A DNA stretch of 64,000 nt from Zingiber officinale (taxonomy: Eukaryota > Streptophyta > Magnoliopsida > Zingiberales > Zingiberaceae), in NCBI RefSeq assembly GCF_018446385.1, contig NC_056005.1, forward strand, positions 62,842,239-62,906,238, given 5' to 3'. Shown here piece by piece: positions 24,192 through 58,713 of this stretch (position 1 is its first letter; every line of letters starts with the position of its first letter). Below the pieces are notes generated by a model. It was not told where the DNA came from, made no database searches, and saw only the letters and a program-made list of their open reading frames with translations. Both the position numbers and the translations under genes were made by a program.

Positions 24192-24250
<59 letters not shown>
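24192..24250. repeat. (AT)n microsatellite, about 29 repeats
   Basis: Pure alternating AT. It lies 17 bases beyond the stop codon of the minus-strand gene, thus in its presumed 3' UTR, and in the narrow gap between two convergent candidate genes. Confidence 0.95.
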
Positions 24251-24267: not shown

Positions 24268-24370
24268 TTATAGTTGACTGTTCATTTGTTGTTCAACCCA
24301 AGCACAATAGTCGCTGTGTAACTTCTCAGCAAGCAGAGGAACAAGCCTGTCGAGAAGACCTTGCATAACC
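24268..24370 (-). CDS. Last coding exon of the DUF1997-like gene
   Basis: Acceptor TATTGACAG precedes GGTTATGC at 24370. The first base completes the Leu codon begun in the exon at 24977-25035. It encodes VMQGLLDRLVPLLAEKLH and SDYCAWVEQQMNSQL, then TAA at 24268-24270. No stops or frameshifts. The 606-bp intron to the next exon shows no coding sequence that fits. Confidence 0.75.
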
Positions 24371-27300
24371 CTGTCAATAGAAGGGAAAAATTAATAATTT
24401 CCATGCTTCCCACATGTTAATTGAAACATATGGAACAGAGTTCCGATAAGAAATCTTCAGTGACTGCATTTTCTGCAAGAAGTTGTGCACATAAGACAAG
24501 CTACAAAAACATCCTACGATTTTCCAGAGAAACACAGTTATTTCGGAAAACTGTTTGATCAAGTAATATTCGTCAACCAAAATCTTGTTTTATACACATT
24601 AAGGGAAGAGTGATAACCTCAGTGCCAAATTTGGATTCATACTGTTTCCTGAATATTTTTACCAGCATTGTGGACAAGGTTAGTTGAGTAAAGGGTAGAA
24701 GTGATGCATAGCCTCATGCAATGGAATTATATCTAAAGAAAATTTTTGCACACTCCATTTGCTACCAGTGTCAAACTTGGATCTCCAACAAAAGTGCAAG
24801 AATAAAGCTTCTCAGATAGAACAAAAAAAAAATTGTTCTGCCTTCATCTTTAACTGAACCTTGCATGAGCAGACCTTAAAAAATATAATTTAAATGATTG
24901 ATACCAACTTTAACATAGATTTCTCAAGCATTTGAGATGTTTACAACTGCAGAACATATTAATGAAAAGGACTTACAAATTTCCAGGTTTTTCCACAGCT
25001 GACAAGGGAAGTAAGCTGAATGGTTTTGTATAAACCTGCAATGTAGATGTATCCATAAACATGTAGGCACTCTGTGGTTAATGAAAATCAAGAAAGCGTC
25101 AATGGAAAATATAAGCATGAGAAAAGATGAGACTTGATAAAGATCTTGTAGGGGTAGCAGCAAAAATCTCAATAACATTGTCCTTGAATCCACTTATAAC
25201 ATGCAAAGGATGTGAGAATGCATGCATTATGTTTAAGTAGCAATAGAATAGTGTTAGTAACCCAACTGTAAATTTATAAATATGCATGTAAATGTAAGAT
25301 GCCAATAAGATAATATAAAGAGACATCTCAGGTGAGACAACCTTAATAATTGTGTCCCCAACTAAACACTAAATCAATGCAAAATCGCTGTTCCTAGTTC
25401 TCCGTCTGAGTGATGCAAAATTTCTATTTGGCAACACAATTTCCAACTCTCCAACTATTCTTGTTCCAGCAATTCTTCTTCCTGAGGATTTCTGCCTGTG
25501 CATGTTTCTGCCTCCATTTCTGCTTTGTATTTCCTCAATTCACTTTTCTACCTCACCAGGAAACAACCAATTCCAGTGACCTTTCTACACCACTGGATTT
25601 AACCATGGGTTCCTCATCTTTTAACTGAACATTTCTACACCATTAAGTTTTGTGCATTTCCACATGTTCATAATTTCTACTTTTCCAATGAGAGCTGCAT
25701 CTGCACTTCTGAGTTCTTCAATCTACAATGCATTTTGAATGAAACTGGCCTGCCCTTCTTTGTAATGTTTTTTTTTGGTTCTTTACTGATGTTTTTTTTT
25801 AATCTTTCCAAAATTTTGCCCCTTTCTAATTTGTTGCATAACTGTGTTGATCTTGAGTACGTCATACCTTAATCTGCCAGTTTTGCCACGTCTCTCAAGT
25901 TCAATGGTTAGCAAGTATTGTAATAGCATCCCTAAATTTTATTCCATGCAATGGAATCAATGGCAAAAGAATATATTTCACCACAGAATATAAATTTTGT
26001 GGGAGAATCATACCTCTTAGGCTGCCACAGATAGCTTTAACAGATAGATTGTTACTTTACATGGGTATATTCCACTCAACTTTCAGATCGAGGTTGTTCT
26101 TATTGCATGCTACCTTATAAATATGACATCCGCTATTTTTCATAATCAAATCTCCCTTACTGTTTCTTTTTCTTGTGATGTAATATGATATCTTCCGGCG
26201 CATATGTTTAGTTGCCCACTCTTATCTTCAAATAGGGAACTATTCATCAAAAGTATTTTCTATAGTTACTCGTGCATATAGAAGTATAATGTTTGAGCCT
26301 ACTCCTTTCTTTTACACCTTACCATCTCCATTCAAGTCCATGTTGTGGAGGTACTTTCCATTCCTATAATTTTTGGTCCACCATCTCCGTTAAAAGATAC
26401 TAGCATTAGACAATCATAGACTCATTATGGGCCATCATATGTTAATTTTCCAATATGCCATAATATTCAAACTCTTTTGCTTTGCCAACATCTGCCTTTT
26501 TGGAACCTCTAAATTAGACTTCATTATTCTCTAAAAAGATATTCATATACACTATCATACACACTTTCTTGCAAATTATTTTATATTTCCTCATCACTTG
26601 ATTAATCTTTGTTTTTTTCTCTTTTTGTATTTTTGAATACACATTCTGTTGGTACAATATTACCCCAAGTGTTCAAGTCCAATTAGGTTGTTTTGATGTT
26701 GTTTGCAAAGGGTTTAAGTTCGTTTTATTTTGTTACTTGGGTATGTTTGTCAAACAAAAGCACGATGGACAATTCAAAGTGCAAGTGGTGATTCAACTCA
26801 ATAAGTGTTGAGGTTGGAGAGGTCTAAGTAGATCAAAGTTGATTACTTGGTATATGGAAAAGTCTAAGAGTCTTCGTAGATGAAGTTTAAGTGTTGGTAG
26901 ATGGGGAAAAAAAACCTCCTTGGCATATAGAGAAAGATCAACAAGTACACAAGTCCAAGGTGTAAACTTGACTAAAGAATAAGTGTTCTAGATCATAATT
27001 GATTAATGAGCTCGATCTCAAGTTAAGTCAAGATCACTGAGAAAATTTAGTTGACTAGTCTACTGAAGCTTTGTTTCAATTGACTCAATAGTCAATTATA
27101 GACATTCTACTTGTGAACAAAAGCATTCTGTTTTGGCTTGAGTCATCTAGACAACCGCGACTGCTAGAAAACTCTATTTGAATTGAATCGACTTAAGAAA
27201 TATTCATTAGAGGTAAGGTTCACAGCAACAACCATTTGAGTCGATTAGAAGAGGTTGGAGTCTACTAAATGTCATTTATTGGTGAATAAGGTTGCAAACT

Positions 27301-27695
27301 TATCTCATTGAGTCAACTAATAGGATTAGAGTTGACTAATAAAAATTGAGTTGATTGGACCAGGTTGGACTTGACCAAAAATGTTATCCAGTAGAAAATA
27401 AGGTTACGAACTTATAGTTATCAACTGACGAAGATTTGATCAATCGGACAAGTGTAAATTTGACTTTAGGAGGCCATGTATTAGGACTAGGGGTGCAAAC
27501 GGTGCTAAAAAGCTTATTAGCATTAGCATTGCTTTTATTTTCATTTACATTTCCACTACATATTGAGCTCTAACTAATTGCTAGCACGTTGTGAGACTTA
27601 TATTTTATACAATAATATTTGAATTGATTTAAATGTCAAGTTTTGGTTATTCACTCGCTTCCAGCCACGTATGCTATACATTCCATTGCTAGATC

Positions 27696-27733
<38 letters not shown>

Positions 27734-30700
27734 CCAGATATCCAACTCTTCGAACTGATTAAGAGGTGAGCGACTCGGCCCAGTTTCCCATCGATCACTT
27801 TGGTAAATCGAGATGTGCTCACGGAGACCTATCCAAGCGTGTTCTTAGAGTTGTCAGCGCACTGGAGAAAAATTCCTACAATGCATCACAGCTAGGATTC
27901 GACCCTTAGATGTCTGGTTAACCGTTTGAAGAGCCTAACAGCTGCACCATTACCCTAGGGCAACTTTTTATTGTATCAAGGCGCCGGATCCAAGATCAAG
28001 ACAACCCTACACAACATTGGGGCGGAAGAGAGCAAAGCAGCCCTATATAACATTGGAGATGATAAGGCGTCGGGTCCGGATGGATATGGAGTGAAGTTCT
28101 TTACCTCAGCATGAGATATAGTTGGTCCGGATTTATCACAGCAGTACAAGAGTTCTTTCAAGGTGCGAAGTTGCTAAAACAATGGAACCACTCATTGATC
28201 TCTTTGATACCAAAGACGGATCATACTCCAGGAGTTTCGGATTATCGACCCATCTCTTGTTGTAATGTCTTCTACAAGATAATTGTCAAGGTGTTGAGTG
28301 GCCGATTAGCTATGGTATTGGAATATTTATTGGATCCAGCACAAGCAACTTTCATGAAAGGACGGTCTATAGGTGACAACATCAACTTAACCCAAGAGCT
28401 ACTATGGAAGTATACACGTAAAAGAATCTCACCAAGGTGCATGATTAAAGTAGACATGAAGAAAACATTTGATACGGTGGATTGAGATTTCCTCGTGGCG
28501 GCCCTTGTTGATTTTGGTTTTCCCCAACAATATTGTGGTTCAGCATGGTTTCTTATTCTATCTCCCTAAACGATGGCCTTCATGGATTCTTTAGTGGAAA
28601 GTGCGGCCTAAGGCAAGGTGACCCCTTATCACCCTTGCTTTTGGTATCTTGTATTCCTTTAGATTGGGAGAAGTTACCAATTGTCAACTATGGTCCTCAT
28701 TGCTATTACAAGGAAGATAAATGCTTGGCCGAAGCACACCTTATCGTATGCGAGACGATTGGAGTTGGTAAAAACGATCCTTCAGGAATGGAATGTTATT
28801 GGCTTTCTATGCTCCCTATTCTCGATGATATCATTGAGAAGATCAAAGCTATATGTTGGATGTTTGTTTGGTCTTCCAAGCAACCACCGATATCGTGGGC
28901 CACCATTTGTCTTTCTAAACATGATGGAGGGTATGGCCTTTGGGATCTTCATACATGGAATGATGCTCTACTAAACAAAACACTATGGGAGATTCAATCC
29001 AAAACTAACTCGTTATGAGTGCAAGAGTGCTGATTTTTGACATTGGGAAGTCAAGGCTTCGGATTAAGAGGCTTGTGGACATTCAAAACAAGATCCAAAG
29101 GGCTACAAGCGGAAATGGTGCGACGAATATGATGATGATTGAGTGGTTCGCGGCGGAGAAGAAGGGGATTGCAAATGCCTAGCAGTTCTTCAAACCAAGA
29201 GGCTCAATGGTGGCTTGGGCACCAGTGGTTTGAAGGCCAGAGATTATGCCAAAGCATTGTTTCATTGTATGGCTACTTGCACATGGGAAACTACGAATAA
29301 CAAATAGAATGCCATATGAATCGACCAAGGCTTGTGTACTTTGTCGGCATTATGATGAGTCAAACCGTCACTTGTTCTTTGAGTGCCCCATCACTTGTGC
29401 TTTATGGAACAAGATGAAACGATGGATAGCGACCAGTTATGAAGTCCGTTCGGTAGAGGAGCTATTTCAGATCCTTGGATAACACTACAAAGGTGCCAAT
29501 CGCAAAATGAATGTCCGATATCTTGGTGTTTCAAGTATGATCTATGTCTTGTGGAAAGTCCGCAATAGATGTCGCTATGGGAATGGCTCTGGATGTTATA
29601 CATGTCTATTGCTTTGTGGACCTGCGTTGATAGTGAATAGTTGCAGATGACTTGTGTCCATGTGTGTGTTTATGTTTTTGTTTATGAGCTGTTAGAGGAG
29701 TTTATATCATATGTCGGGATAGTTAACTCCTTTTTAATGATTGTCTCGTGTAGTGTTGTTGATTGAGGTCGTAACTTCTTGAAGTATTTTTTATACATTT
29801 ACCTAATTCCATTGAAAGTATGTTTTGTTGTGATAGATGAGATGATAACTTTACATTCTAATGATCTTTGGAAGCCATAAAGGAGGCACTTTTGTGATGA
29901 TTATTGAATACCTCCTCATATTCTTTTAATTGTATGGATTATGATTGATTTAAATTAGCTTAATTATAGAGATTACGATAGATTGTAATTAATGATTGAT
30001 AGACATATTATGATTATATCCTCTTTCCCTCCTTATGTATATGCATACCTACTTGTAAACATATTAGGTTATTGAAAAAAATAATCTCTTTCTCTTTTAC
30101 ATGGTATTCGAGCAAGTTCTCCTTCTCTGACCTTTTTTTTTATTGTCATTATTATTGTTGTGCCTCCTACTACTGATGTCCCTTGCAGTCAATGTTGGTG
30201 TCGATGTCCTTTGCTGTCGATTTTAGCACCGACATCCCTTGCTGCCGATTTCGGTGTCGACATCATGTGCTATCGATTTCAGTACCAACGTCCCTTGCTG
30301 TCGATTTCGATGCCGATGTACTTTGCTAATGATTTCGACGCCGACGTCCCTTGCTGTCACCTTCTACTACTATTAGATCAACCAGTGTTGTCCTATCTTC
30401 TACTACTGAGGTTCCACCTCTGATTTCCTTATATAATGAAGTCTTCATATTCTAAACCCAATTTGACTACCATTATTAAATTGAATAGGAACAACTATCT
30501 CTTGTGGTCATATTCGTTTAAATTATTCCCGGGATGTCACAAGAAGGAGCATATTTTGTCCTGTCTTCCTGACAGTAAAGATCCAAAATATTCAGATTGA
30601 GTTTTAGACGATTGTTCTGTTATGGCTTGGCTTCTCAATAACATAGAGAAGTTCGTGAGTACTAATATTATGTTTGTGGAAACTGTCAAGGAGATGTGGG

Positions 30701-33700
30701 ATGCCTTACGGGGGTATGCCTTACGGGGGTATGTATTCGAATGACAAGAACGTTTCTCGGATTTTCAAATTATATGAAAAACTCTTCTCTCTTCCTTCGC
30801 CAGGATGGTCAATCTGTTAATAACAATTTTACAACTCATAAGGAGGTTGCCGATGAAATTCTGCTATACTATCTGCTCTCTTCTGATGCTCAGACTCGCA
30901 AGAAGTGGGAGGAATTCTTGGTTACGAAGTTCCTATCCGGTTTGGATTCCACTCTACGACTAGTTTGGGATAATATGTTGGCAAGTGATAACATTTCCAT
31001 GTTATTGAATGCTCTATCTCGGGTAAGGTTGTCAAAATCGAGAGTTTAAGTAAAATCGTTAAAGCAGTCATAAAATTGAATCATAAAATCATAAGATTTT
31101 ACATCATACTTTAAATCAGTTTTAAAAGAAAATATTTCAATCCAAATTATAACATAAATCTACATATAGAACATTTTAATTCATATAATCATAAACTATT
31201 CAGTTTTAAACTTTCAAACAACTAAATACTTGCCATGAAAACACAACATAAATATAAATTCAAATCTAAAGCTTAAGTCCAAAGATAAATAAAACACAAG
31301 ATAACAAGTTAATATAAATCATTTATAGACAAGTGCAAATCTAAAATCGCCCCAAAACGACATCATTTTATCTAAAATGGCCCCGTTTTATTAACGACAC
31401 AAAATCAATAAAATCATCCCAAAAATCGTGTTTTTACGTGTTTAAATGTGATTTTATGATTTTGATCCGATTTTACTTTAACACACGATTTTGTCACAAT
31501 TTCACTCAATTTTGATAGGTAAACTCGTGATTTTGTACGAGTTTACGAGTCCAAACACGAGTTTGATAACATCGATCTCGGGTTCTTCGTGTGACCATGA
31601 GCCGTCCTGACACTAGTTTTTCTTCATCTTTCGACACTTCGGTTATGGCTGCTCGTGATTGTGGATTCTTTCAAGTCATAATAGTATTCATGATCATGGT
31701 CGTTGTCGTGGAACTAATACCACCAGGAGTAACCGTTCGTGTGTTCACTATAGCCGTTCCAACCACGCCTCCAAGAAGTGTTGGGGGAAGTTTGGTAAAC
31801 ATGACTCGACTAATAATGCATCTACCAAACTATCGACTTCATCACCTTACACTGGCAATCATGAAGATACAGTCTCTGTTTCTCATACTTATTATGAGAA
31901 ATTGCTTCGCTCTTCTACTAGCAATCCCTCTGCCATTGCTACCTCATCCTCTCCAAGTGAATTTGCTATGTCTTGTGATAAGTCTTGGATGATGGATTAT
32001 GGTGTATCTGCTCATATTACCGGTAATAAGTCTGTTTTTTCTTCTTCATTTGTTTCCTCATCTTTATCGCTTGTTCGTATAGCCAATGGTACCTATTCTC
32101 CGATTATTGGAAGTGGTGTTATCAAACCCGCGATTAATATCACTCTTGAAAATATTCTCTTTGCACCTTAATTTCTTGTTAGTTTACTATCCATAAGCCA
32201 GCTAACAAAAGCTCACAACTTCTTCTGTATCTTTTTATCCATCCGATTGTATTTTTCAGGATCTACACATAAAGAGGATGATTGGTGGAGGATATGAGAT
32301 TGATGGCCTATACTATTTGGATTCGGTTACACATGCATGTTCTCAGGCACTCTCAACAACTGTGACTTCTTATCAATGGCATTATCGTTTAGGTCACTCA
32401 TCTTCTGCTCTCAAAAGTTTGGTTCCCGTTCCTTTTACTAATTTCCAGTGCGAGTCCTATGAGTTCGGCAAACACCATCATACTTTTTTCCATCTAGAGT
32501 TGATAAACATAGTTCTTTTACATTTGAACTTGTTCATTGTGATGTTTGGGGACCTAGTAGAATTGACTCAAGAGGAGATTTTCAGTATTTTATAATTTTT
32601 ATTGATGATTATTCTCATATGACTTGGTTATATTTATTCAAAAATAGGAGTGAGGTTCCTAAGGTGTTAACATCATTTTATAATGAAATAAAAACTCAAT
32701 ATTCTGCTGCCTTACGCATTCTTCGCACCGATAATGCACTTAAGTTCAATCAGAAGACAATGTCTACATTCTGTTATTCTCATGGCATAATTCATTAAAC
32801 CTCCTGTTCACACTTCCCAACAAAATGGAGTTGTTGAATGCAAACGTCATATTTAAGACATAGCTCGTACTCTTCTTTGTCACATGCATGTTCCTCAATT
32901 TTTATAGAGTGATGTTATTCTCACAACTTGCTTTCTCATAAATAAGATATTGTTTACTATGTTACATAGGGATATCCCCTTCTATTGTCTTCATCCTAAC
33001 AAATCTCTTTTCTTTGTGCTTCCTCGTGTATTTGGTTATGTTTGTTTTGTTCATAATTTTACTCCTGGCTGGGATAAATTGTCTCCTCACTCTATTGAAT
33101 GCATCCTACTTGGATATTCTCGCACTCAAAAAGGATATCAGTCTTGACCCACTCACAAAATGCTATTACACCTGTGCTAATGTTACATTTTTTTAGTCTC
33201 AACCATACTTTTTCCCCGTGTAGCTCAGTTACTTGATACATTAGCATCTCCTCCATTACCTATCCCACCATCCATGCCCCCCACTACAAATGTAACATTA
33301 GACTCAAAAACCATTGAAGGTGTACACAAGGCGTGCTCAGCCATAACCAGATTCATGTCCTTCGCCTCCTCTTCTTGCAGCTCCTGATGCTCCTAGCCCC
33401 TCTGATATTGATCTGTCTATTGCTCTTCGTAAAGGTAGTCGATCTTGCACTACTCATCCTTTGTATAATCATATCTCATTTGATTATCTTGGTTGCGTTC
33501 CGCACTTTTGTTGTTTCTCTATCATCTACAGAAGTTTCAACTTTCTACTCTAAGGGTTATCAACACTCAGCTTGGCGAACAACAATGGATGAGGAAATGT
33601 CTGCCCTTATCTCTGGTGATACTTGGAAACCGATGGTTACACCACCCCCTGTTGATATTGTTGTCTGTCGTGGGGTATTTACTTTGAAATTTAGAGCTGA

Positions 33701-45700: not shown

Positions 45701-48700
45701 GGACGAGTTGCCGGGAACCGAGAGATTTAAATATTTAGGATCATTTTTACAAAATGATGGAGGGATTGAGAGAGACGTCTTACATAGAATACAAGCAGGA
45801 TGGGTGAAATGGAGGGGAGCGTCGTGTGTTTTATGTGACCGTAAAGTACCTCTTAAACTTAAAGGTAAGTTTTATAAAACCACTGTTAGACTTGCTATGT
45901 TATATGGAGCTGAATGTTTGGCTATGACTCGAGCACATGAGCATAAGATGAGAGTTGCAGAGATGAGGATGTTAAGGTGGATGTGTGGACATACGAAGAT
46001 GGACAAAAAAGGAATGAGAGCATTAGAGAGAAAGTCGGAGTTGCATCTATTGAGGACAAACTTCGAGAGACACGTTTAAGATGGTACGGACCAATAAATG
46101 CTCCAGTTAGGCGATGTGAAACTATGATAAACATGCATATCAAACGAGGAAGAGGAACACCAAAAAAGACTTGGTTAGCAACAATAAAACAAGATAAAAT
46201 TTATTTAAATATAGATGATGATATAATATGAGATAGAGCTCAATGACGTGTAAAAGGATTCATACAACCGACCCCACCTAGTGGAAAAAGGCTTGGTTGT
46301 TGTTGTTGTTGAAGACTATGAAAAGTTCAAGTCTGGGGGATGTTTGTTTGTTAGTTTATTTTAGCTAATAATTAGTTGCATTTGTCTTATTTCTTTTTGT
46401 ATTATTAATGTTTACATGTCATTAATGCAATGTCTTGCTTATTTGTTCCTTGTAACAAGTTACTCTAGATTTTTATATTGTGATAGTATGCTAGTATGCT
46501 TAATAATCTATTTTTTTCTATCCGTAGTAGTATGAAGTGAGCAATGTTTTTATTAGAAGAATTTGAGTGTTGACCTAGTGTTAGGATCTTTTCACGCTAT
46601 GCTTGACTTTGATAGTAATTATTTCTGAAAATAGTTATGATTCATAGAACCGGACTAGTACTCTTGCTTCCTACGTGACCTCTCAACTACATTTTGGTTA
46701 CTAGATAAACTCGGGTCATGTCACCTCATTTGGAAAAATCAAAATCCGAAAAAAAAAAAAGAGAAAAAAGATTTTGTTCAAGTGTTGCACTTTGCAATCA
46801 CTTAACGAAAAAAAATAAGTGATAAAAAATAGTTGTTGTGAGTGAGAATTAACAAATTACTCCTTTGAGATCGAATTAGGTTACTGGAGAAGTAACTGTT
46901 ATGTTTCTCTTAATACTGAGTATTCCTTCGAGACCATGTGTAGACTTTGAGGGGGACAAATCTGTGTGTGGCACATAAGTGTCTATCGTCGGAAGGATTA
47001 GGAACATTATTAGATGACGATTTGACTAGAATTACAAGTCGAAATTAAAAAAAGTTGAGTCGCTCATTGTACTGAGCACGGAGAACTTATACTAAGGTTA
47101 CACTCAAATAATTTTATTATCTTACTCAGTAGTGAAACTATATAATAGGATTAGACTGATTCACTAGAGATTATGATGCATCATTTACCGACATAAATCT
47201 AGTTTGCAGGTTTTACTTGAAGACAAGCAAAGGTTCAAGTTTGGGAGTATTTGATGAATGTAGATTATATATATATTAAACATCATTTATGATATATTTT
47301 ATTGCATTTCATAAGCGTAATTTGCATTCGCACACTCTATTTCTTTGGATTTCATTACTTTTACTCTATTAGTTCAAAAAACTACTCTTTGCCTATTTTC
47401 ATTAATAGGACGTGGATTTAGAGTCAAAATGGAGCATCGAACGTGGAGTTGGAGCAAGGAGCATGCTATGGGCATGCTCCTACAGCCAAGAGAGACAGAA
47501 TGGAGAGGAAAAAGACTCAACGCGGGCTAATTATGTCTCATCATCAAGCTTCATTATCGAGCCAAACACACAAAGCGTCCACGAAGAAAAAAAATTCAAA
47601 AGACTCTCAAAATAAAGTTTTAATCAAGGAATACGCTCCGACAATGTCCCATAACACGAGTATGTTTATATGGAAGAAATCAAGGGCAAAACAATGATAA
47701 AATGACCCAAACAACTTCCACCACAGCCACTTGTGTTGCCGGGCACGGTCGTGTCAAATGTGCCCATTTTTCGGAGCCAAACACGGGTGCCCGTGTTAGC
47801 GAACACGGGTCGTGTCAGCCTCCGGCTCAAACCGTAGGTTAAACTTTGAACGGTCATAACTTTCGACTCGATTGGAGCCACAGGTCGTACTACCTATCAA
47901 AATGTAGATAATTTCAAGATCTACAGCTTTGATTCAAGGTTCAACCCGAGAAAATAGGGTCTAAGGGCTGAAAAACTAGTTTTAGTAAAGTCATGTATAT
48001 CTACAGATCTGGATAGTTTGGGGAGGTATAAAAGAGTCAAGCAAACTCTTGCTTGACTCATCTTGGACCAAGAGACTCCGTAACCCTCCTTGGGAGAGGT
48101 TTTTTCCCTCTTGGGAAAATCCTAGAGCAAGCATCTTCTTCCATCCTGACAATTCGTCCACCTCCGAATCAAGGAACCATTCTGAAAACACTAACAATCT
48201 TCTCGCTAAGCATTGCTTCCTCTATTCTCTATTTTTGATTGTATGAATGCTTCTCTATTTTTCGTTTGTAATTCCCTTGCAATCGAGTAGTTCTCTTGAT
48301 TCTAGGAATAGGATTAGCCCCTTTAATGTGTAAATGTTATTCTATTTAATCTATTAAGTTTGCATGTTACTTGTTCGATGAAATATGTGTTAGTGGTCCA
48401 GATCTACTATGTAAACACAATCTCGATGTCGAGAGGCACGAGATTCGTATCTCACAGGGATTCAGAGATGGACCGAGGGGAGAACCCAATCCTTCAATCC
48501 ATAAACAACCAAGACACGGAGAGTCGGTTATGAGAGTAGATCGATAAGTTGCGAGGAACCCTAGGCTGACATAGAGCTTAATTGATCAATCTTAATTCAT
48601 CGTCACATAATAGGAGTGAGTGGTCATTTAGAGGTTGTGGAATCTCGTGATAGGGTCACCTTAGGAAGCAATCCCTAATTTCGACCGTTTCAAAAGTAGG

Positions 48701-51700
48701 CAATAATTGGAGTTGTTACAACGGTGTAATTCCAAAAGTTTACATTAGATACAAAGGTTAGTCTACCTATACAAATCACCATTGAGTATAGAAAATCAAA
48801 CATAGATAAGGTATTTACAATCATTTGGGTGAATTTGAAGTCCTATAATCACTTCCCCCTTCACTCACTTTCTTATCTCAGCTCTCTTCTCTACCTCTCC
48901 TTCAATTCTCTCGTATTCAGCTCTCCCACTCTCTATCTTAATTCTCTCAAGCTCACTTGCGAACACAACCAACTGTGATTCTCTATATAACCTATTTCAC
49001 CATTCTGACTAGTACTGGATTCACAGTTCTCGTAGGATCGATATTTTTTTATTGCTTGTCTACATTTCTGTGCAATAGCAGATTTATCCCATCAAGTTTT
49101 TGACGTCGTTGCCTCCGACACAAACTGCAGACCAAACTTCAAACGACTATAACTTTTGGCGCGATTTGAGCCACATATCGTACCCCCTATCAAAATGTAG
49201 ATAATTTTAAGATCTACAATTTTGATTCAAGGTCTAATCCGAGAAAACTGGGTCAAAGGGGCGAGAAACCAATTTTGGTGGAGCCATGTTAATCTATAGA
49301 TTTGGACAGTATAGGGAGGTATAAAAGGGTCAACCAAACCCTTACTTGACTCATCTTCAACCAAGGGACTCCACCCCCTCCCTCCTTGGGAGAGGGTTTT
49401 CCCCACTTGGAAAATCCTAGAACCATCATCCTCATCCATCCACCTCCGGAACAAGGAACTATTTCCAAAGACACCAACAATCTTCTTACTAAGCATTTCT
49501 TCCTCTATGTTTTGGATTGTATGAATGTTTCTCTATTGCTCTGTCTCGATCGTTGGCTGCAGGTAGTGTTGACCAAATGACTTCGAATGACTTGGTCAAC
49601 ATAAAAGACAGCTCATCATACCCTCCCCTTCTGGGCATGATGACTTGGTCAACATTCCAACCACATCATCGGCAGTTCCGTCTTCTCAACTTTCAAACGG
49701 GATCAAATTTGGCATCGTCTGTGGGAACTTCGCCTGATCTGGAACGTGAAGATGGATGACATCAAAAAACTCTATCATCATCATAATCCTTGTGGGTTTC
49801 GACGAACATATTATATTCTCCTCACTCCACAGGTATTCGGGAGTAAAGGAACCAAGTCAGATCCGCAGCTGGACGACATGTTAGTTTTTCTATTATTATA
49901 TTTTTTCCCCGACTCCACTAGTATTCGGGAGTTGAGGGACTGAGGCGGATCCTCAACCGATTGGCACGGCTCCTAGATCAGGTATGCTACGGGCTCTGCT
50001 CCTTTTTTACGATCACAGAATCTGCTACAACTCCTTGATAAGAGAGTAAGATCATAATTCCTTGATCAAAAACTAGGGCCCTAGATCCTTGATCAGACAT
50101 TAGGGACATAGCTCCCCGATTAGACACTAGGGGCACAGCTCCCCGATCAGATACTAGGGACACATCTCCCCGATCAAAGACTCACGATACAGCTTCTCGG
50201 TCAAGATCCAGGGGCCTCGCTCTTTGATTACAAGCTAGGGGTCTTACTCTCCGATCAAGGACTAAGGGCTCAACTTCCCGATCTGGTGTGCTACAGGCTC
50301 TGCACCCTCCAATCATGGGGCTCTGCATCCTCTTACTGCTACAGGCTCTGCACCCTCCACCTATGGGGATCTGCATCCTTTTACTACTATAGGCTCTGCA
50401 CCCTTCATCATAGAACTCTACACCCTATTACTACCATATGCTTTGCACCATCCACCTATGAGGATTTGCATCCTCTTACATTTACAGGCTCTGCACCCTC
50501 TACCCACGGCGCTCTGCTTCCTCCTATTGCTACGGGCTCTGCTCCCTCATATTTCTATGGGCTTCACTTCCTTTGATGGTCAGGGCTCATATTATTCTCT
50601 CCTTAACTCCGCGGATATTTAGGAGTCAAGGGATCGACATTATTTCTCTCCCCGATTTCACGGGCATTTGGGAGTCGAGGGATCAAGTCAGATCTTCAGC
50701 CGGTCGACACCACTTCACGATCATGTATGATAAAGGCTCTACTCCCTCATATTACTAAGGGCTTCGCTTTTATGAATTTCTGAGCTTAACCTCCCCCGTT
50801 CGGAGTCGAGCTATCACCATTAGTCTCGAACCAGAGTATCCCACGGGCTCCGAGTCCACTCAGTCTACGGGCTTTGCACTCGCCCGTGTGATTCACGATC
50901 TCCTCTACCGCTCGACATCGCTCGATCGCCCACTCGGCATTCGCCCGATCGTCCACTAGGCGTTAGCCCGTTCGCTCGGTTGGCGTTCTCTCGATTGCCT
51001 GATCGGCATTTTTCGATCACCCGATCAAGGTTTACTGTCGCTCGATCGACATTTTTTTGATCACGCGCTCGGAACCCCTCGCTCGCCGACTCTCCACTCG
51101 CTTGGTGTTCTCCCGAGTGCTCGGTCAGCATTTCTTCGATCTCCCGCTCGACACTATTCGGTCTTTCGCTTTATTCCGTTTATACGCACGCTCGGCATTC
51201 TTCCGTTCGCTAGGCATCCGTTGGGTACCATTCGGCCGTTCGATCAAATTCTCTCGGTCGGCTTTCTAGACTCTCGCCCAAGAGCGAGTTAGAAGCGAAC
51301 AGGGCTCTCGTGGCTAACGACCTCTCAGTCGGGCATAACGACAAGTCGGTCGGGTTCTCTCCTTGATGAGGTGCTGGTCTTACTTGCTGCTCTATTCGAC
51401 ACTCGTCGCCTGGTCGACATTCATCGCTCACGCCTCATTCGCCACACTGCCCGGCACTCATCGTTCGCGTCTTACTCACCGCTCTGCCCAGCACTCACCG
51501 CTCGCGCCTCACTCATCGTTCTACCCCGCATTCACTTCTTGGTTGACACCCATTTTGCTTCTTGCCTAGCATTCGCATAATAGTCTGATCGCTTTGCTCA
51601 ATATCGCCCCACCGCCTGCTTGATATTGCTCGGTCCACCCGCTCAACATTCTCCTATTACTCGGTCGGCATTTTTCGATCGCCTGGTTGGATTTTACGAT

Positions 51701-54700
51701 CAGTCGGTCGACATTTTTCGATCGCCCAGTTGCAGTTTACTGTCGCTTAGTCGACATTTTCTCGGTCGCGCGCTCGACACCACTCGCCCATCGTCTTTCC
51801 ACTCGCTCGGCATTCTCCCGAGTATTCGGTCGGCATTTCTTCGATCTCTCGCTCGACACTACTCGGTCTTTTGTTTTGTTCCATTTATACGCACGCTCGG
51901 CACTACTTGATCTTTCGCTTTGTTCCGTTTGTACGCACGCTCGGTATTCAACCGATCGCTTGCTCGGCATACGCTCAACACCATTTCTCATCGCTCACTC
52001 GGTATTACTTCAGTCACTTGCTCAGCATCGCCATAGCAACTCATTCAACGTTATACGATAAGCCCAGTGATCGGACTCTGCATTCAGGAGAGATTTTGTT
52101 TTTCGTTTGGCTGAGTCTAATCAGTCAGACTTGCGCCTCCTTCAACTAGATTTAAAGGGGAGGCTTGTGATATGAATATATCTTGGGACCCCAGTGGAAT
52201 TAGGAATAGAGGGGGAGGGTATTTTGGTCAAATCACTGTATAGGACTTGAAGAAAAGGAGATGCACTGTTCACAAGGGGTTTTTTTTCTTCGGGGGTCCT
52301 TCCGCCGCCATGAGGGTGGAAGGTGGGTGGCCGCCTATTCCGCCTCCGGCGTCATTCCCTGCGATCGCCGCCCCTCACAGTGGTCGGCTTCTCCTACCTT
52401 CTCCAGGCCAACACACACCTCTGCCGCCTCCCATCTCATCGCCTCCTCCTCAGCCAAGGAGGATGTCGCTCCCTCTCCACACACCGCAGCCTTGTTTGCC
52501 GACAATCGCCAAGAACCGCAGCCATGCCCGCCAATGCCTCTTTCGACTCCTCACGCCACCGCTATTGCACGAACCCATGCGAGGATACCGCCACATGCTC
52601 TCTCGCTCTCTCTCTCTCCCGTAACTCGACTGCAGCTAGTGGGTGCTCGTCGTTTCCCTCATTGCTTGTTGGACACTTCACCATCGCCTCCCCGCACGCG
52701 TGCAGCCACTTCCACTACCAGACAGACCTTCGGACGTCGACGCCGCCTCCCCCTCTCTATGAGCCGGCAGCACACACTCCGCCTCTCTCTCTATCTCTGA
52801 GTTCACCGGCACTCTAACAACCGCCCTTCAGCAGGTGCCACCGGCTACTCTCGACCCATTCTAGCACCGCAGGGATCACTGTCGCACTCCGCAGTCGTCG
52901 TCATCGCGCTATAGCCGGCTGTTATCTTCGCGCCATAGCAGGTCGCCGCATTGCCGTCTCAACCAGACACTGCATGAGTTTCTCTGTTCGTCGCTGGTAC
53001 GACCGACCACACTAGCGCAAGATCAGCCTCGAGCCGTAACCATCCCCCATTGTCGTAGACGACCTCCAATTCATGTTGTCATACACTTCTGATGCCAATC
53101 CGGTATCTGATCCACATTGACGTACGTTTTCGACACTGATCTGGCCTTCGAGCCACTGTTATGTTCCGGCCATCGAGCCGCTATTTCGTTCTTTCCATGT
53201 CATTGTGTTTCAGTCTGCGTGTCGATGTCATATCCTAGCCTGTGTACCGACGTTATATCTCGACCTACGTGCTTTTGTCATATCCCGGTGTGCGTGTCGC
53301 TATTAGGTCCTTGCCTACATGTCGCCTTCTAGGTCCAAGTCACATTCAACTCCGTGTATCCAACTCCTCATCCAGCTCGCATTCAGCTACTCTTCCGAGT
53401 TGCGACAACTCGATCAGCGCCACAACCAGCTTACTGATCCACCAGAGGGCGCCCCCTGGGCTAGGGTACGTTCTCCATTCTTATTCTATACGCATTTCCT
53501 TATTCTACTATTGGTTCTGTTCTTTATATATTCGTTAGATCTGCCTCGAGCATCGGAGTACCCAGATCGGAACAATCCGGTCGCTGGCTGCGGATAGCAT
53601 TGACCAGAGGACTTCAAACGACTTGGCCAACATAGAAGACACCTCATCATACCCTCCCCCTCCAAGGCATGACGACTTGGTCAACATTCCAGCCATATCA
53701 CCGGTAGTTCCGTCTTCTCAACTTTCAGACAGGATCAGTCACATAATGGGAGTGGTCATTTAGGGGTTGTGGGATCTCGTGATAGGGTCTCTATAGGAAG
53801 CAATTCCTAATTTTGACCATTCTGAAAGTAGGAGATAATTGAAGTTAATATGCCGGTGTAGTTTCAAATGATTACATCGGATACAAAGGTTAGTCTACCT
53901 TCACGAATCAACATTGAGGATAGGAAACCAAATATAGATTAGGTGTTTACAATCATTTAGATAAAACCAAAGTCTTAGAATCACTTCCCCTTCCCTCACT
54001 TTTCTAACTCAGCTCTCTTCTCTATCTCTCCCTCAATTCTCTCGTGCTCAGCTCTCCCACTCTCTCACTCCCTCTCTCTCTCAATTCTCTCAAGCTCCCT
54101 TGCGAACACAACCACCTGTGATTATCTAGATAACCTATTTTATCATTCTGACTAGTACTTGATTCATAGTCCTCGTGAGATCGATATCTTTTTATTAGTT
54201 GACGATATTTCCATGCACTTACTGATTTATTCTATTGTCGGGGATAATTATTCGTAATGTGGCATAATGGTAGAATTTGAGTTTTTATTTAACAAATTAT
54301 TCGTAATGTGATTAAGTGAATATAGTTGTGGATATTAAAACATTTCTTGTGATTTATATTATGGTTGTATAGCAACTTCCCACTTAACAAGTACCCAATA
54401 GACCATCAAACCCTAATCATGAGGAGCCATGGCCTACAAACGAGTATGGGGACAAACTTGGGGTGTGACATACACATTGATTTGTAGCCTTAGTTGGCGA
54501 CAATATAGCAGTGAGAAAACAAAATTTATGTTAACATCAATTTATGGGGAAAAAAAGGTTGTAACTTGACTAGATATATTAATTATAATTATAATTTTTA
54601 TCTTTTCCCATTTATTCTTTCCTTGGCATGATGTCACATAAGCAATATCACTGGATAGCTCGCTCAAGTGAGAATGAAACATAGCAGATCCTACAAGGTG

Positions 54701-54886
54701 CATATAACACAAGTAGATGTGATATTTGCTGGGTGTATGCAGCAAAAGGTGGTGCAGATGGATAGCAAACTTAAACATTAGAATGGATAGTTTTTCTTAC
54801 GTCAAGTGCAATTCTCAAATTCACATCCACAACCAAGCATGGCTCTGAATTATCAGCCTCCCAAGTTATATGATTTCTCATAAATG
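24268..54886 (-). CDS. Host gene, three C-terminal exons, DUF1997-like, with a ~29.8-kb intron
   Basis: Exons at 54801-54886, 24977-25035 and 24268-24370 join in phase (0, then 2) with GT donors and CAG acceptors to give one continuous 80-residue C-terminal segment ending in TAA. The segment has beta-strand-like NHITWEADNSEPCLVVDV, then PFSLLPLSAVEKPGN, then an amphipathic GLLDRLVPLLAEKL helix and a DYCAWVEQQ tail. This is the order I know from the end of plant and cyanobacterial DUF1997 (PF09366) proteins; the family call is from memory. The 5' part must lie beyond 64000 or be unrecognised. The 29,765-bp intron holds the nested retroelements. Alternatives: exon 54801-54886 belongs to a displaced or duplicated gene piece, or the gene is dead. 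Confidence 0.6.
24977..25035 (-). CDS. Penultimate coding exon of the DUF1997-like gene
   Basis: 59 bases between acceptor ACATTGCAG and donor GTAAGTCC, both close to consensus. It encodes VYTKPFSLLPLSAVEKPGN plus two bases of the next codon, which the exon at 24370 completes. Fully open in this frame. Confidence 0.78.
25036..26647. other. Intron sequence without recognised elements
   Basis: Moderately AT-rich, unique-looking sequence. Short open frames on both strands have no domain. A stretch at 25140-25210 reads openly on the minus strand but lacks good splice sites. Interpreted as the 3' part of the giant intron. Confidence 0.5.
26648..27480 (+). repeat. Degenerate LTR-like fragment (SIRE-like start)
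   Basis: Begins TGTTGGTACAATATTACCCC and soon has AGGTTGTTTTGATGTTG, recalling the TGTTGGAACCCC...AGGTTGTTTTGGTGTG start of the LTRs at 15196 and 18338. It continues with repeated GAGTTGACT / GAGTCGATT motifs. No primer-binding site follows, so it is a solo or truncated LTR at best. Confidence 0.4.
27481..28019. other. Unassigned repeat-like sequence with (TA)n at 27703-27729
   Basis: Contains a short TA microsatellite and, from about 27740 to 27955, dispersed-repeat-like sequence ending CTGCACCATTACCCTAGGG. No coding capacity seen. Confidence 0.4.
28020..29689 (+). pseudogene. L1-type LINE remnant (reverse transcriptase and zinc-binding tail)
   Basis: RT pieces in shifting frames: DDKASGPDGYGVKFF, then SLISLIPKTD and VSDYRPISCCNVFYKII, KGRSIGDNINL, MIKVDMKKTFDTVD, and GLRQGDPLSPLL. 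The next domain with the FADD box is missing. The text jumps to the C-terminal region (ISWATICLSKHDGGYGLWD) and a zinc-binding domain (KACVLCRHYDESNRHLFFEC) near 29325-29390. Order and motifs are of plant L1 LINEs. A stop at 28483-28485, frameshifts and internal deletion make it dead. Copia-4 inserted at 29690. Confidence 0.88.
29690..30101 (+). repeat. Copia-4 5' LTR, about 412 bp
   Basis: Begins TGTTAGAGGAG inside LINE sequence and ends TCTTTTACA immediately before a primer-binding-site-like sequence. Short LTR length suits small copia lineages. The 3' LTR is missing because element C sequence takes over near 34040. Confidence 0.75.
30102..30113 (+). other. Copia-4 primer-binding site, two mismatches
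   Basis: TGGTATTCGAGC differs at two positions from the Met-tRNA site TGGTATCAGAGC found in the other copia elements here. Confidence 0.75.
30197..30358. repeat. 28-bp tandem repeat in Copia-4 leader
   Basis: Five and a half copies of a TCCCTTGCTGTCGATTTCG-type unit of 28 bp between the primer-binding site and gag. Confidence 0.75.
30436..31023 (+). pseudogene. Copia-4 gag, 5' part
   Basis: From ATG 30436 the frame reads KLNRNNYLLWSYSFKLF, has a TGA where a tryptophan is usual, then VLDDCSVMAWLLNNIE. A 15-bp direct duplication (TTACGGGGGTATG) near 30707-30735 disturbs the frame. After it come SRIFKLYEKLFSL and KWEEFLVTKFLSGLDS in another frame. A UBN2-type copia gag. It is interrupted at 31024 by a MITE. 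Confidence 0.85.
31016..31023. other. 8-bp target duplication of the MITE, left copy
   Basis: ATCTCGGG here and at 31575-31582 flank the AT-rich insertion exactly. Confidence 0.85.
31024..31574. mobile_element. hAT-like MITE, 551 bp, in Copia-4 gag
   Basis: Flanked by an identical 8-bp duplication (ATCTCGGG), the hAT superfamily size. The ends are imperfect inverted repeats: TAAGGTTGTCAAAATCGAG at the left, and the reverse complement of the right end reads CGATGTTATCAAACTCGTG. The interior is AT-rich and non-coding. The gag frame resumes after the right duplication. Confidence 0.82.
31583..32171 (+). pseudogene. Copia-4 gag 3' part, zinc knuckle and protease
   Basis: In the frame of 31659-32171: a basic region, a decayed zinc knuckle (CVHYSRSNHASKKC, with the second Cys now Tyr), and a protease start SWMMDYGVSAHITGN in which the usual Ser/Thr of the D-S/T-G triad is Tyr. 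Both changes would abolish normal function. Confidence 0.82.
32172..33200 (+). pseudogene. Copia-4 integrase remnant
   Basis: Frames alternate: a pre-integrase HYRLGHSSSALKSL, CESYEFGKHHHTFF with a changed Cys, IIFIDDYSHMTWLYLFKN and LRTDNALKF from the core, then a stretch with stops, and FGYVCFVHNFTPGWDKLSP with GYSRTQKGY from the integrase C-terminus. Frameshifts and stops throughout. Confidence 0.82.
33300..34040 (+). pseudogene. Copia-4 reverse transcriptase remnant, truncated
   Basis: RT N-terminal motifs SAWRTTMDEEMSALI, LKFRADGTIDGHKARMVVKGF and GIDYFETFSPTAS lie in one frame to about 33810. After a frameshift the text shows an EQPLGYF-like segment and VIYGLKQSPRA. The element stops near 34020-34040 where element C LTR sequence begins, so the rest of RT, RNase H and the 3' LTR are gone. 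Confidence 0.85.
34042..34603 (+). repeat. Element C (Athila-like), 5' LTR, truncated at its left
   Basis: Matches the 3' half of the LTR at 47252-49094, with shared TGACATAGAGC, GTGGTCATTTAGAGGTTGTGG, TTACATTAGATACAA and TCTGACTAGTACT blocks. It lacks the first 1.2 kb. Directly followed by a primer-binding site. Confidence 0.85.
34606..34624 (+). other. Element C primer-binding site
   Basis: TTTTTGACGTCGTTGTCGG, a variant of the Athila-type site TGGCGTCGTTGCCGGGGA seen in element A, in the expected place after the LTR end. Confidence 0.75.
34725..35465 (+). pseudogene. Element C gag-like remnant with decayed zinc knuckle
   Basis: One frame from ATG 34725 to the stop at 35463-35465, broken by two stop codons (near 34897 and 34974). 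The first part has CEICGVTWLMTDNC, a CX2CX4HX4C knuckle with Leu in place of His, then YRVSGEKYDLSDYND. The 146-codon open part from 35025 is not recognised; it contains two loosely repeated QES.xLV.xPL segments. It lies between the primer-binding site and the end-of-pol motif, so RT and integrase are absent. Confidence 0.6.
35668..35712 (+). other. Conserved end-of-pol motif of Athila-type elements (element C)
   Basis: GGGGTCGAGCT and later AAGCACTTCTTGAGAGGTAA correspond to GGTCGAGCTAAAG and AAGCGCTTCTTGGGAGGCAA on the minus strand of element A (40876-40926). It marks the boundary between the former coding part and the 3' non-coding part. Confidence 0.6.
35877..36112. repeat. Dyad array in element C interior (CACGGGCGCCCGTG type)
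   Basis: Units with palindromic or near-palindromic cores (CACGGGCGCCCGTG at 35877, CACGAGCACCCGTG at 35929, then GCACAGGTGCTCGTG copies at about 35967 and 36028) spaced irregularly at 40-60 bp. It sits just after the end-of-pol motif, the same position as the array in element A. Confidence 0.7.
36245..36249. other. Target-site duplication of element A, left copy (TTTTC)
   Basis: TTTTC precedes the LTR at 36250 and is repeated at 45322-45326 after the other LTR. Removing element A and one copy restores continuous element C sequence. Confidence 0.88.
36250..37390 (-). repeat. Element A left LTR (3' LTR), 1141 bp, internally deleted
   Basis: Starts TGTTGACCTCCGC and ends CTACGCACATCA. Relative to the right LTR it lacks about 490 bp (corresponding to about 43730-44216). 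It includes a TATATAAAT box on the minus strand at 36804-36812 and dyad units at about 36848-37120. Confidence 0.93.
36804..36812 (-). promoter_or_regulatory. TATA box of element A LTR
   Basis: Minus-strand TATATAAAT, retained as TATATAAA at 44649-44656 in the other LTR. On the element strand the dyad array lies just upstream of it. Confidence 0.6.
37391..37403 (-). other. Polypurine tract of element A
   Basis: Minus strand AAGTCTGGGGGTG immediately precedes the TGATGTGCG start of the LTR. Confidence 0.88.
37404..38474 (-). other. Element A 3' non-coding region, with a second G-tract
   Basis: No coding sequence. At 38433-38445 a run of 13 C (13 G on the element strand) in an AAGTCGGGG...GTG context copies the layout of the true polypurine tract and sits 30 bp after the accessory ORF stop. 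Parts of this region are related, in reverse orientation, to 46320-47250 of element C. Confidence 0.7.
38475..39983 (-). CDS. Intact 502-codon accessory ORF (Athila ORF-1 / plant transposon protein type)
   Basis: Uninterrupted from ATG 39983 to TAA or equivalent at 38475. It has a Ser/Gly/Lys-rich N-terminus (residues 1-45), a large globular domain with RFLDWSDMLYTHLLTYPRLV, FRLMNQEFQWTFSDFNTCFGLS and YALWAMLHKVNFDSG (about residues 85-270), then a Pro/Ser-rich linker, a likely coiled coil (about 390-460) and a Pro/Arg-rich end. It resembles the Athila ORF-1 / Transposase_32 type proteins of plant Athila elements, whose role is not known; an envelope-like role has been proposed for some. No signal peptide and no clear membrane segment is visible. 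Being open while gag has several stops is notable. Confidence 0.85.
   Translation of the reverse strand: MSNLLKRLRKGSGGSSGGDKGKEPSKDKGKQLVQGKGKRTSCNEGNDNEFNIVFRNDDQITKFAILVHRKIVCTRYMNPTVLDMIGIRDDIDWMIRFLDWSDMLYTHLLTYPRLVLEFLSSLDVHFANEDDYVGKITFRLMNQEFQWTFSDFNTCFGLSFGSSRMFDSRFNWNNFWNSITGLDHPYEPSRAKASHMQNPVFRYLHRVMSKTILGRGESDGVVKKVELYALWAMLHKVNFDSGFHFLQSLVRAARASSGSIVLGELITQIVINLELDLDGLEVIHGNDMIDMDACLAMKMIIRDENGFTFPRRNGFPLPLPCPDPTSVRNPANWVITDVDPENVPFISGDTEPHIEPSTSGYPQPSGHSDPARHSFAYGTGPSRFDFSDFRTSLETLHEKHDAQRRMLEGRFSLSDNQFRKVQEHFRFTRNFQGQVAEFVQDYDTDQARMRDFMQNISVTSQQVDALFEYHIILSETPGFPSFPIGQPRRRHPFPRPPPPLPY
40240..40760. repeat. ~52-bp array with CACGGCCGTG dyads, element A interior
   Basis: CACACGG starts at 40297, 40351, 40404 (as TACACGG), 40456, 40508, 40560 and 40612, with weaker members near 40245 and 40665. 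Spacing is 54, 53, 52, 52, 52 and 52. Each unit is a palindrome CACGGCCGTG, 5-9 variable bases, a second ACACGGCC, then a CT-rich spacer containing TTCTCTGGA-like text. It lies between the protease/end-of-pol part and the accessory ORF. Confidence 0.88.
40876..40926 (-). other. End-of-pol motif of element A
   Basis: The minus-strand text GGTCGAGCTAAAG...AAGCGCTTCTTGGGAGGCAA follows the protease frame with one stop between. In an autonomous relative RT, RNase H and integrase would precede it. Its direct joining to protease shows where pol was lost. Confidence 0.65.
40932..41942 (-). pseudogene. Element A protease region, open for 336 codons, catalytic Asp changed
   Basis: A linker with NKIELRSGRTL leads to a retropepsin-like domain: YIPCNIETQFIEKTFFN then LGVSVSLIPYSICNKLGL, the hydrophobic strand VLDIEEEPKIPIILGRPFLAT and AGAIIDVKN. 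In this family an Asp stands before LG at the active site. Here it is Asn, so the enzyme should be dead although the frame is open. The frame is the 3' continuation of gag at 43208. Confidence 0.85.
41943..43208 (-). pseudogene. Element A gag, several in-frame stops
   Basis: From ATG 43208: an N-terminal NNFEIKPAIISMVQQNQFGG, Retrotrans_gag core (FSVRDRAKQWLNSLAP, TTWEQCEQQFLDKFYPPSKT), and a knuckle CEVCGSSEHSNDSC near 42366-42410. TGA at 42771-42773 and 42357-42359 and further stops near 42171, 42057 and 41992 lie in one frame, without frameshift, continuing into protease. Typical Athila-lineage gag order. Confidence 0.9.
43209..43590 (-). other. Element A 5' untranslated leader
   Basis: A-rich on the plus strand, no coding sequence, between primer-binding site and gag start. 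Confidence 0.75.
43591..43608 (-). other. Primer-binding site of element A
   Basis: Minus strand TGGCGTCGTTGCCGGGGA, the Athila-type site (commonly attributed to an Asp-tRNA primer), a few bases inside the right LTR. Confidence 0.85.
43615..45321 (-). repeat. Element A right LTR (5' LTR), 1707 bp
   Basis: Matches the left LTR at both ends and contains a 490-bp block absent there. The dyad array at 44690-45060 has CACGGCC starts at 44690 (as CATGGCC), 44744, 44797, 44850, 44902, 44953 and 45004, a spacing of 54, 53, 53, 52, 51 and 51. Confidence 0.94.
45322..45326. other. Target-site duplication of element A, right copy (TTTTC)
   Basis: Identical to 36245-36249. Confidence 0.88.
45327..45459 (+). 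other. Element C interior between two insertions
   Basis: Short non-coding piece of element C between element A and the LINE. Its last bases TTGAAGACTATGAAA (starting at 45460) are duplicated after the LINE. Confidence 0.65.
45475..46308 (+). mobile_element. 5'-truncated RTE-type LINE, with 15-bp target duplication
   Basis: Flanked by TTGAAGACTATGAAA at 45460-45474 and 46309-46323. It encodes the C-terminal half of an RTE-clade reverse transcriptase from DELTAHLQDT and FADDIILVDETREG, through FKYLGSFLQNDG, HRIQAGWVKWR and VAEMRMLRWMCG. A TAG precedes FADD and a frameshift in the A6 run near 46003 splits off the end (REKVGVASIEDKLRETRLRW). It finishes with GGTTG(TTG)n, the tail type usual for plant RTE LINEs. 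Dead on arrival through 5' truncation. Confidence 0.92.
46309..47251 (+). other. Element C 3' non-coding region and polypurine tract
   Basis: Resumes element C after the LINE. Related in inverse orientation to 37404-38430 of element A. It ends AAGGTTCAAGTTTGGGAGTAT (47231-47251), a polypurine tract before the LTR at 47252. No coding sequence. Confidence 0.7.
47252..49094 (+). repeat. Element C full-length LTR, 1843 bp
   Basis: Starts TGATGAATGTAG after a polypurine tract and ends TATCCCATCA, followed by AGTTTTTGACGTCGTTGC, a primer-binding site. Having a tract before and a primer site behind, it is the shared LTR of two joined copies. TATAAAAG is at 48027-48034. Dyads AACACGGGTGCCCGTGTT and GCACGGTCGTGTC lie at 47745-47815. 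Confidence 0.88.
48027..48034 (+). promoter_or_regulatory. TATA box of element C LTR
   Basis: GGAGGTATAAAAGAGTCAA, repeated as GGAGGTATAAAAGGGTCAA at 49320 in the next LTR copy. Confidence 0.65.
49095..49112 (+). other. Primer-binding site remnant followed directly by another LTR piece
   Basis: AGTTTTTGACGTCGTTGC then CTCCGACA, after which sequence equal to the middle of the LTR (about 47822 onward) begins. The entire interior of a second copy has been deleted. Confidence 0.7.
49113..49550 (+). repeat. Element C third LTR copy, left part
   Basis: Matches 47822-48245, including the TATA box. It breaks off at about 49550 where element D begins; the continuation is at 53738. Confidence 0.82.
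49551..49705 (+). repeat. Element D 5' LTR, last ~155 bp only
   Basis: Matches 53583-53737: GGCTGC...TAG, GACTTGGTCAACAT, CTCATCATACCCTCCCC, GGCATGATGACTTGGTCAAC, CCGTCTTCTCAACTTTC and the GGATCA end. Confidence 0.85.
49708..49727 (+). other. Tat-type primer-binding site
   Basis: TTTGGCATCGTCTGTGGGAA differs by one base from the TTTGGCGCCGTCTGTGGGAA usual in Tat/Ogre elements. Confidence 0.75.
50040..50565. repeat. Tandem repeats in element D (27-bp and 48-bp units)
   Basis: 27-bp units of the form CTCCCCGATCAGACACTAGG near 50110-50190, then about five 48-bp units (CTACAGGCTCTGCACCCTCC...) from 50291 to about 50545. The 96-codon frame at 50286-50576 exists because 48 is a multiple of three. 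Confidence 0.8.
50880..52050. repeat. CGCTCGGCATT-type short tandem repeats in element D, with a ~170-bp duplication
   Basis: Units of about 25 bp centred on CGCTCGGCATTC and CCGATCG. A longer segment at about 51025-51200 recurs diverged at about 51730-51905. The open frames on both strands here reflect the repeats. Confidence 0.7.
52166..53737 (+). repeat. Element D 3' LTR, 1572 bp
   Basis: TG...CA borders, preceded by a purine tract. The first third is GC-rich and open in three frames at 52247-52817, which is a composition effect. No TATA box was chosen. Confidence 0.78.
53738..54231 (+). repeat. Element C third LTR copy, right part
   Basis: Continues C LTR after element D from GTCACATAATGGGAG. 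It matches 48590-49090 and 34130-34600, and breaks off shortly before the LTR end, leaving TGTCGGGGATAAT, a possible primer-site residue. Confidence 0.83.
54232..54800. other. Intron sequence next to the host exon, with a possible LTR end
   Basis: AT-rich. CTTGGGGTGTGACA at about 54459-54472 resembles the 3' end of some gypsy LTRs. Otherwise unassigned. Confidence 0.4.
54801..54886 (-). CDS. Upstream exon of the DUF1997-like gene
   Basis: Bounded by acceptor TTCTTTTCCTGCAG and donor GTAAGA on the minus strand, both strong. The 86 bases encode two bases of a preceding codon plus FMRNHITWEADNSEPC and LVVDVNLRIALD, with no stop. It ends in phase 0, matching the exon starting at 25035. Earlier exons were looked for up to 64000 and not found. 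Confidence 0.75.
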
Positions 54887-57350: not shown

Positions 57351-57570
57351 AGGCTATGACAGATAAGTTGATCCTGGCAGGTCGCCGAGAAAGATAACTC
57401 AATCCTGGCAATGAAAGATAAGTCAATCTTGGTCGGGCGGTCTGGAGAGATGGCTAGGTCTCGACCGGCCGTCCGATAAAGATGATTCAATCTTAGCTGA
57501 AAAGTCAAGAAAAATAAGATGAAAGTAGCGGTTGGGAGAGATAGCTCGATCCCGATTGGACAGTCAGGAG

Positions 57571-58437: not shown

Positions 58438-58713
58438 TATAGAGAGATGATTCAATCATGGTCAAAAGGTCATGAAAGATAAGTCGATCTCGGTTGAATG
58501 GCTGAGAGAGATAACTTGATCCTGGCCAAAAGGCAAGAAAGGATAAGTCGATCCTAACCGGGTGACCGGGAGAAATGGCTCGATCTGGGACGGATGACCG
58601 AGAGAGATATTCAATCATGGCCAAAAGGCAGAAAAAATAAGTTAATCTTGGTCGAGTTTGGAGAGATAACTTTATCCTAGCTGAAAGGCCAAGAAGGATA
58701 AGTCAATCCCAAC

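Follow-up and report, generated by a model that had tools for sequence, protein, structure and literature searches.

A 29.8-kb retroelement-rich penultimate intron in the 3' part of a DUF1997 gene of ginger

Can three short exons, two of them set apart by almost 30 kb of mobile-element sequence, belong to one working gene, and does such an intron do more than separate them? This question is raised by a stretch of 64,000 nucleotides of ginger (Zingiber officinale, contig NC_056005.1), in the following called the window. A preliminary description made from the letters alone had proposed on its minus strand a host gene with three exons, consensus splice sites and junction phases of 0 and 2. The window very probably represents the 3' end of a functional nuclear gene of the DUF1997 family, whose penultimate intron was passively enlarged to 29.8 kb by transposable elements (TEs).

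Three exons and the protein they encode

The proposed gene structure was confirmed. All three exons, here called A, B and C (Table 1), are flanked by AG/GT sites with the acceptors TTTTCCTGCAG, ACATTGCAG and CTATTGACAG and the donors GTAAGA and GTAAGT, and their joining in phases 0 and 2 yields a frame of 81 residues followed by a TAA stop codon. A search covering 5.8 billion proteins gave the ginger protein P0001 (LOC122028760 isoform X1, 228 residues, DUF1997), which is 100% identical over the part compared, and all 81 residues correspond letter for letter to its residues 148-228. With this exact match a splice join by chance, which had already been considered hard to believe, is excluded. 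A gene could therefore be recognized correctly from raw sequence across a TE-filled intron of 29.8 kb. The three last coding exons amount to 248 nt within a span of 30,619 bp; entire ginger genes are reported to average 5,031 and 5,028 bp in the two haplotypes (PMC8342499).

The suggested assignment to DUF1997 (PF09366) also held. Compared to a Pfam gathering cut-off of 27 bits, the window-encoded peptide reached 51.4 bits (E 1.7e-13, profile positions 83-153 of 153) and full-length P0001 125.6 bits (positions 2-153 of 153). No NCBIfam match was found for the protein, and a profile search of PDB sequences for solved-structure relatives returned no match at E up to 1. Structure prediction gives a START/Bet v 1-like (helix-grip) fold, a curved antiparallel sheet and a long C-terminal helix being predicted over most of the domain. 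A tomato DUF1997 protein, Solyc08g074450, matched to At4g31115, is tabulated in the chloroplast stroma proteome (PMC10493611). By analogy with these proteins, which like the ginger protein carry DUF1997, the latter is probably located in the plastid stroma. The available parts of the literature, PMC9258809 and PMC10493611 included, gave no function for DUF1997 or At4g31115 proteins, and we found no paper naming LOC122028760 or the second ginger locus discussed below, LOC122027434.

Conservation across the exon junctions was evaluated with a set of 130 listed proteins, combined from 82 proteins of one search and the best 120 of 147 of another and clustered at 90% identity; each of the 129 other proteins was aligned singly to P0001. 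At D175/V176, where the 29.8-kb intron lies, plant proteins were found to align as expected, 126 of the 129 without gap or insert. The three exceptions, P0061 and P0083 from ginger and P0081 from oil palm, all lack the residues preceding the junction, and other residues inserted between the two exons were seen in none of the 129. Continuity at S146/A147 was observed in 125 of 129 proteins, with inserts in two and the region lacking in two. An automatic count for L195/V196 gave 123 continuous proteins out of 129, besides one gap (P0127), one insert and four proteins lacking the region; the true number is 122, since ginger P0062 aligns there by chance via an unrelated tail. In the alignment of the 82 proteins most departures coincide with the junctions, the pattern expected from retention or skipping of introns and exons. 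P0082 from Brachypodium and P0128 from Morus both end in PGNL, and because these ends match a retention of the last ginger intron, its position and phase look conserved. Judged by the listed proteins, the gene is conserved across flowering plants. As a separate observation, the last intron seems to be splice-variable in unrelated plants, with apparent retention, an alternative acceptor and an insert (24874; P0082, P0128, P0049, P0071).

Residues 1-146 of P0001 were found nowhere in the window, neither by tblastn (best 30 pieces per query) nor by a scan for 5-residue words. Besides the three exons, the search for upstream exons with P0001 gave weak, scattered matches with E 0.45 and worse. The intron preceding exon A therefore measures at least 9,114 bp, and the gene should continue past position 64000. 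With the same two methods no alternative exons of the gene were seen within the giant intron. A run of (AT)29.5 at 24192-24250 is likely a polymorphic microsatellite; it lies in what should be the 3' untranslated region, some 17 bases past the stop codon.

Mobile elements in the penultimate intron

A TE-filled penultimate intron of about 29.8 kb, as described before, is indeed present: the 29,765 bp contain TE domains and a pair of long terminal repeats (LTRs), and the junction they interrupt is the one conserved in all but three of the compared proteins. The earlier inventory of elements could be verified in part. An L1-like reverse transcriptase fragment, a copia remnant, an Athila element and a second reverse transcriptase fragment, which may be the RTE element of that inventory, were recovered (Table 1). 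In place of four Athila/Tat elements or LTR copies one element with two LTRs was found, and the miniature inverted-repeat transposable element (MITE) did not reappear. No MITE-like terminal inverted repeats were recognized in 25036-36249 (at least 20 nt) or 45327-54800 (at least 24 nt), the two stretches scanned; inverted pairs in the first of them included 31030-31058/31468-31496 (29 nt, 86%) and 33226-33245/33841-33860.

The Athila-type element spans 9,072 bp, about 30% of the giant intron, and lies in the sense of the gene; the copia remnant and both reverse transcriptase pieces are antisense. It is bordered by a 5-bp target duplication, TTTTC, at 36245-36249 and 45322-45326. Its outer ends read TG and CA, the inner LTR end at 43615 reads TA. 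With the Athila lineage of Ty3/gypsy elements it has the ATHILA ORF-1 domain, gag, the LTR pair and the 5-bp target duplication in common, but it differs in having no space for pol between the protease-like and ATHILA frames, which are only 846 bp apart. Neither reverse transcriptase nor integrase was detected in the four longer minus-strand frames tested (38478-40088, 40935-41990, 42363-42773 and 42777-43307). As these domains were not found there and pol has no room, we consider the element a defective derivative, hardly capable of autonomous movement. Where its LTRs could be aligned, their core shows a Kimura two-parameter distance of 0.078 over 718 sites, corresponding to an age of about 3 million years at the often used rate of 1.3e-8 per site per year, and to 6 million years at half this rate.

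The copia remnant is split into separate frames, in which Pol_BBD and GAG-pre-integrase exceed their Pfam cut-offs and rve (32.1 vs 32.6 bits) and RVT_2 (26.1 vs 31.6 bits) fall below them. For the fragment at 28066-28482 Pfam gives RVT_1 only, and we take it to be of L1 type. Since the ginger genome is rich in copia (33.66%) and gypsy (21.69%) elements (PMC8342452), such intron content is unremarkable.

Table 1. Features of the gene and of its giant intron (window positions; strand of the window).
Feature	Position	Strand	Remarks
Exon A	54801-54886	-	86 nt; residues 148-175 (FMRNHITWEADNSEPCLVVDVNLRIALD) and two bases of codon 147
Penultimate intron	25036-54800	-	29,765 bp, GT...AG; much retroelement sequence
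Exon B	24977-25035	-	59 nt; residues 176-195 (VYTKPFSLLPLSAVEKPGNL)
Last intron	24371-24976	-	606 bp; if retained, immediate stop (NL-stop)
Exon C (last coding exon)	24268-24370	-	103 nt including TAA; residues 196-228, most of the predicted C-terminal helix
Preceding intron, part	54887-64000	-	at least 9,114 bp, runs to window end
Athila-type LTR element	36250-45321	-	gene-sense; LTRs 36250-37390 and about 43615-45321
ATHILA ORF-1 domain, within Athila element	38478-40088	-	PF03078, E 3.6e-22
Aspartyl protease-like frame	40935-41990	-	PF13650, E 6.5e-4, 20.8 bits, below cut-off 24.3
Retrotransposon gag	42777-43307	-	PF03732, E 3e-11
Copia remnant	31659-33842	+	antisense to gene, separate frames
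L1-like reverse transcriptase fragment (presumed)	28066-28482	+	RVT_1, E 3e-13; antisense to gene
Second reverse transcriptase fragment	45516-46076	+	RVT_1 C-terminus, E 3.4e-6, 27.3 bits, below cut-off 29.6
Direct repeat of about 0.5 kb, three copies	34043-34620, 48533-49111, 53734-54236		81-84% identical (self-comparison)

Ginger isoforms and possible roles of the intron

Four ginger isoform proteins were examined, P0001, P0061, P0062 and P0083; as the numbering goes up to X6, further isoforms exist. P0061 (LOC122028760 X2) lacks 44 residues, exactly 132 nt, in frame. P0083 (LOC122027434 X6) lacks exactly the 86 nt of exon A and continues with a frameshifted tail read from 25036, through exon B into exon C. 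Annotated isoforms without exon A exist for both ginger loci, and from the difference of 46 nt between the two skips the preceding exon should have this length and lie beyond the window. P0062 (LOC122027434 X2) ends in ...NLSAHARFS, a tail reproduced by the window via an alternative acceptor of the last intron, with the exon starting at 24874. LOC122027434 would be the allele on the other haplotype, and the window could be either locus. Complementary TE pairs that might loop out exon A were not seen when 54887-64000, the upstream intron as far as the window end, was compared with 25036-54800 by blastn: 37 matches were obtained at E up to 10, and the 30 listed were all of 31 bases or less, the best one covering 20 bases (E 0.065).

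These findings are best explained by an intron that would have grown to 29.8 kb through successive retroelement insertions, since decayed. Because splice sites and exons stayed intact, we propose that selection tolerated the insertions. The giant intron would be transcribed and spliced out, so that exon A is joined to exon B. As an island between introns of 29.8 and at least 9.1 kb, exon A would sometimes be skipped, either by itself, which shifts the frame, or along with the preceding 46-nt exon, which preserves it. On this account the gene would be functional, the isoforms would stem from transcripts, intron size would cause the skipping, and the elements would have no regulatory role. Plant genes whose introns have been expanded by TEs form a well-known class. 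In grapevine, 2,697 introns exceed 3 kb, with one class over 20 kb, and the content of large introns is over 80% repetitive, low-complexity and simple repeats included (PMC3058033). The ginger gene shares with these genes multi-kilobase introns in which LTR elements and long interspersed nuclear elements abound; in a comparison of 39 grapevine genes with those of Arabidopsis and poplar, however, the large introns are mainly 5', whereas that of ginger is penultimate, with species and gene differing as well (PMC3058033). The ginger case is thus a clear but ordinary example. Exon A, 86 nt long and isolated by very large introns on both sides, offers a clean test case in a vegetatively propagated crop for whether exons are included less often as retroelements enlarge the introns around them.

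Several points weigh against passive enlargement of a functional gene. With its 5' exons beyond the window, the locus may be a partial duplicate of the gene, and the intronic elements may have a regulatory role. The skip in oil palm P0081 may mean that skipping is ancestral and not due to intron growth in ginger. The isoform names resemble those of RefSeq models, and presumably the isoforms may be partly computational. The stromal placement leans on the tomato protein, a putative ortholog.

The preliminary description had gone further and seen in the locus a candidate for heterochromatic-intron regulation with intronic methylation and alternative polyadenylation. The DUF1997 host gene, its splice junctions and the giant intron on which the proposal was built are real; instead of alternative polyadenylation, the isoforms examined besides full-length P0001 show skipping and an alternative acceptor. 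Under such regulation CHG methylation and H3K9me2 would mark the intronic TEs, a pathway of the IBM2/EDM2 type would be needed for transcription and splicing through them, and loss of the mark would lead to transcripts ending in the intron, all of which is compatible with the gene model favored here. The idea is reasonable, since rice and Arabidopsis possess such genes. Of the 37,866 gene models of rice, 4,227 contain heterochromatic introns, and dozens of loci are subject to OsIBM2 (PMC7145194); long methylated TEs within Arabidopsis introns must be silenced if premature polyadenylation is to be avoided (PMC4417168). Similar to OsIBM2 targets, RPP7 and AT3G05410, the ginger gene keeps long retroelements in an intron (PMC7145194, PMC4417168), one of them sense-oriented and with LTRs. 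However, heterochromatic introns in rice are enriched near the promoter (PMC7145194), unlike the penultimate intron of ginger. Further, the read-through peptide VRKTIHSNV, expected of transcripts that terminate within the giant intron, ends none of the four ginger isoform proteins examined out of a larger number. For the ginger gene, methylation, premature polyadenylation and dependence on IBM2 are hypothetical. Regulation of this kind is possible in ginger, but we consider it rather unlikely.

Skipping of exon A could also be an ancestral, possibly regulated splicing event of the gene family, independent of the TE load. The 44 residues absent from ginger P0061 are also missing in oil palm LOC105050903 X7 (P0081), and the removal of exactly 132 nt keeps the frame. 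On the other hand, exon A residues are lacking in only three of the 129 proteins, two of them from ginger, and the 44 residues correspond in the AlphaFold model to a helix and two strands of the sheet (136-144, 145-156, 163-175), with whose predicted loss a working product becomes doubtful. The absence of the skip elsewhere says little, because the set was clustered at 90% identity and the best 120 of 147 proteins were listed. Altogether an ancestral origin appears doubtful.

Clearly less probable is a further reading, in which the paired giant introns would form a chromatin-sensitive splicing switch and methylated intronic TEs would set the inclusion of exon A, allele-dependent in clonal ginger. 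If true, the cell would produce the complete START-like plastid protein in one state, and in the other truncated forms from which two strands or the C-terminal helix are missing. A dead 3' fragment or a misassembly, with the real gene elsewhere and provided with a short intron, would fit the failure to find a 5' exon within 9.1 kb upstream, but it is very improbable in view of the intact 81 residues, splice sites and P0062 alternative acceptor, the absence of N runs from the window, and the matching target duplication of the Athila element, which argues for real stepwise insertion.

Repeats and an RNA gene outside the intron

The intron had been thought to hold the whole retroelement cluster; many elements do lie inside, but copia elements also occur 3' of the gene. 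One of these, on the minus strand at 1-9198, is framed by LTR-like direct repeats of 1.75 kb (1-1747 and 7453-9198, 97.4% identical) and shows adjoining pol frames at 2845-5112, split by two stops. Judged by the divergence of the repeats, it is younger than the intronic Athila element. The direct repeats 15196-16173 and 18338-19395 (86%, BLAST) flank a copia-type gag frame at 16428-17684, perhaps a gag-only element.

The plant C/D small nucleolar RNA snoR71 (Rfam RF00097) was located on the plus strand at 20119-20225 (43.9 bits vs 40), some 4 kb beyond the 3' end of the gene's coding sequence. It is adjoined at 19693-20101 by two diverged direct copies (73%), the first of which contains 12 bases, CTACGCACATCA, with which the Athila LTRs terminate as well. 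In the intron preceding exon A, diverged tandem repeats with periods of about 32, 70, 121 and 155 bp form a long array at 58441-59602.
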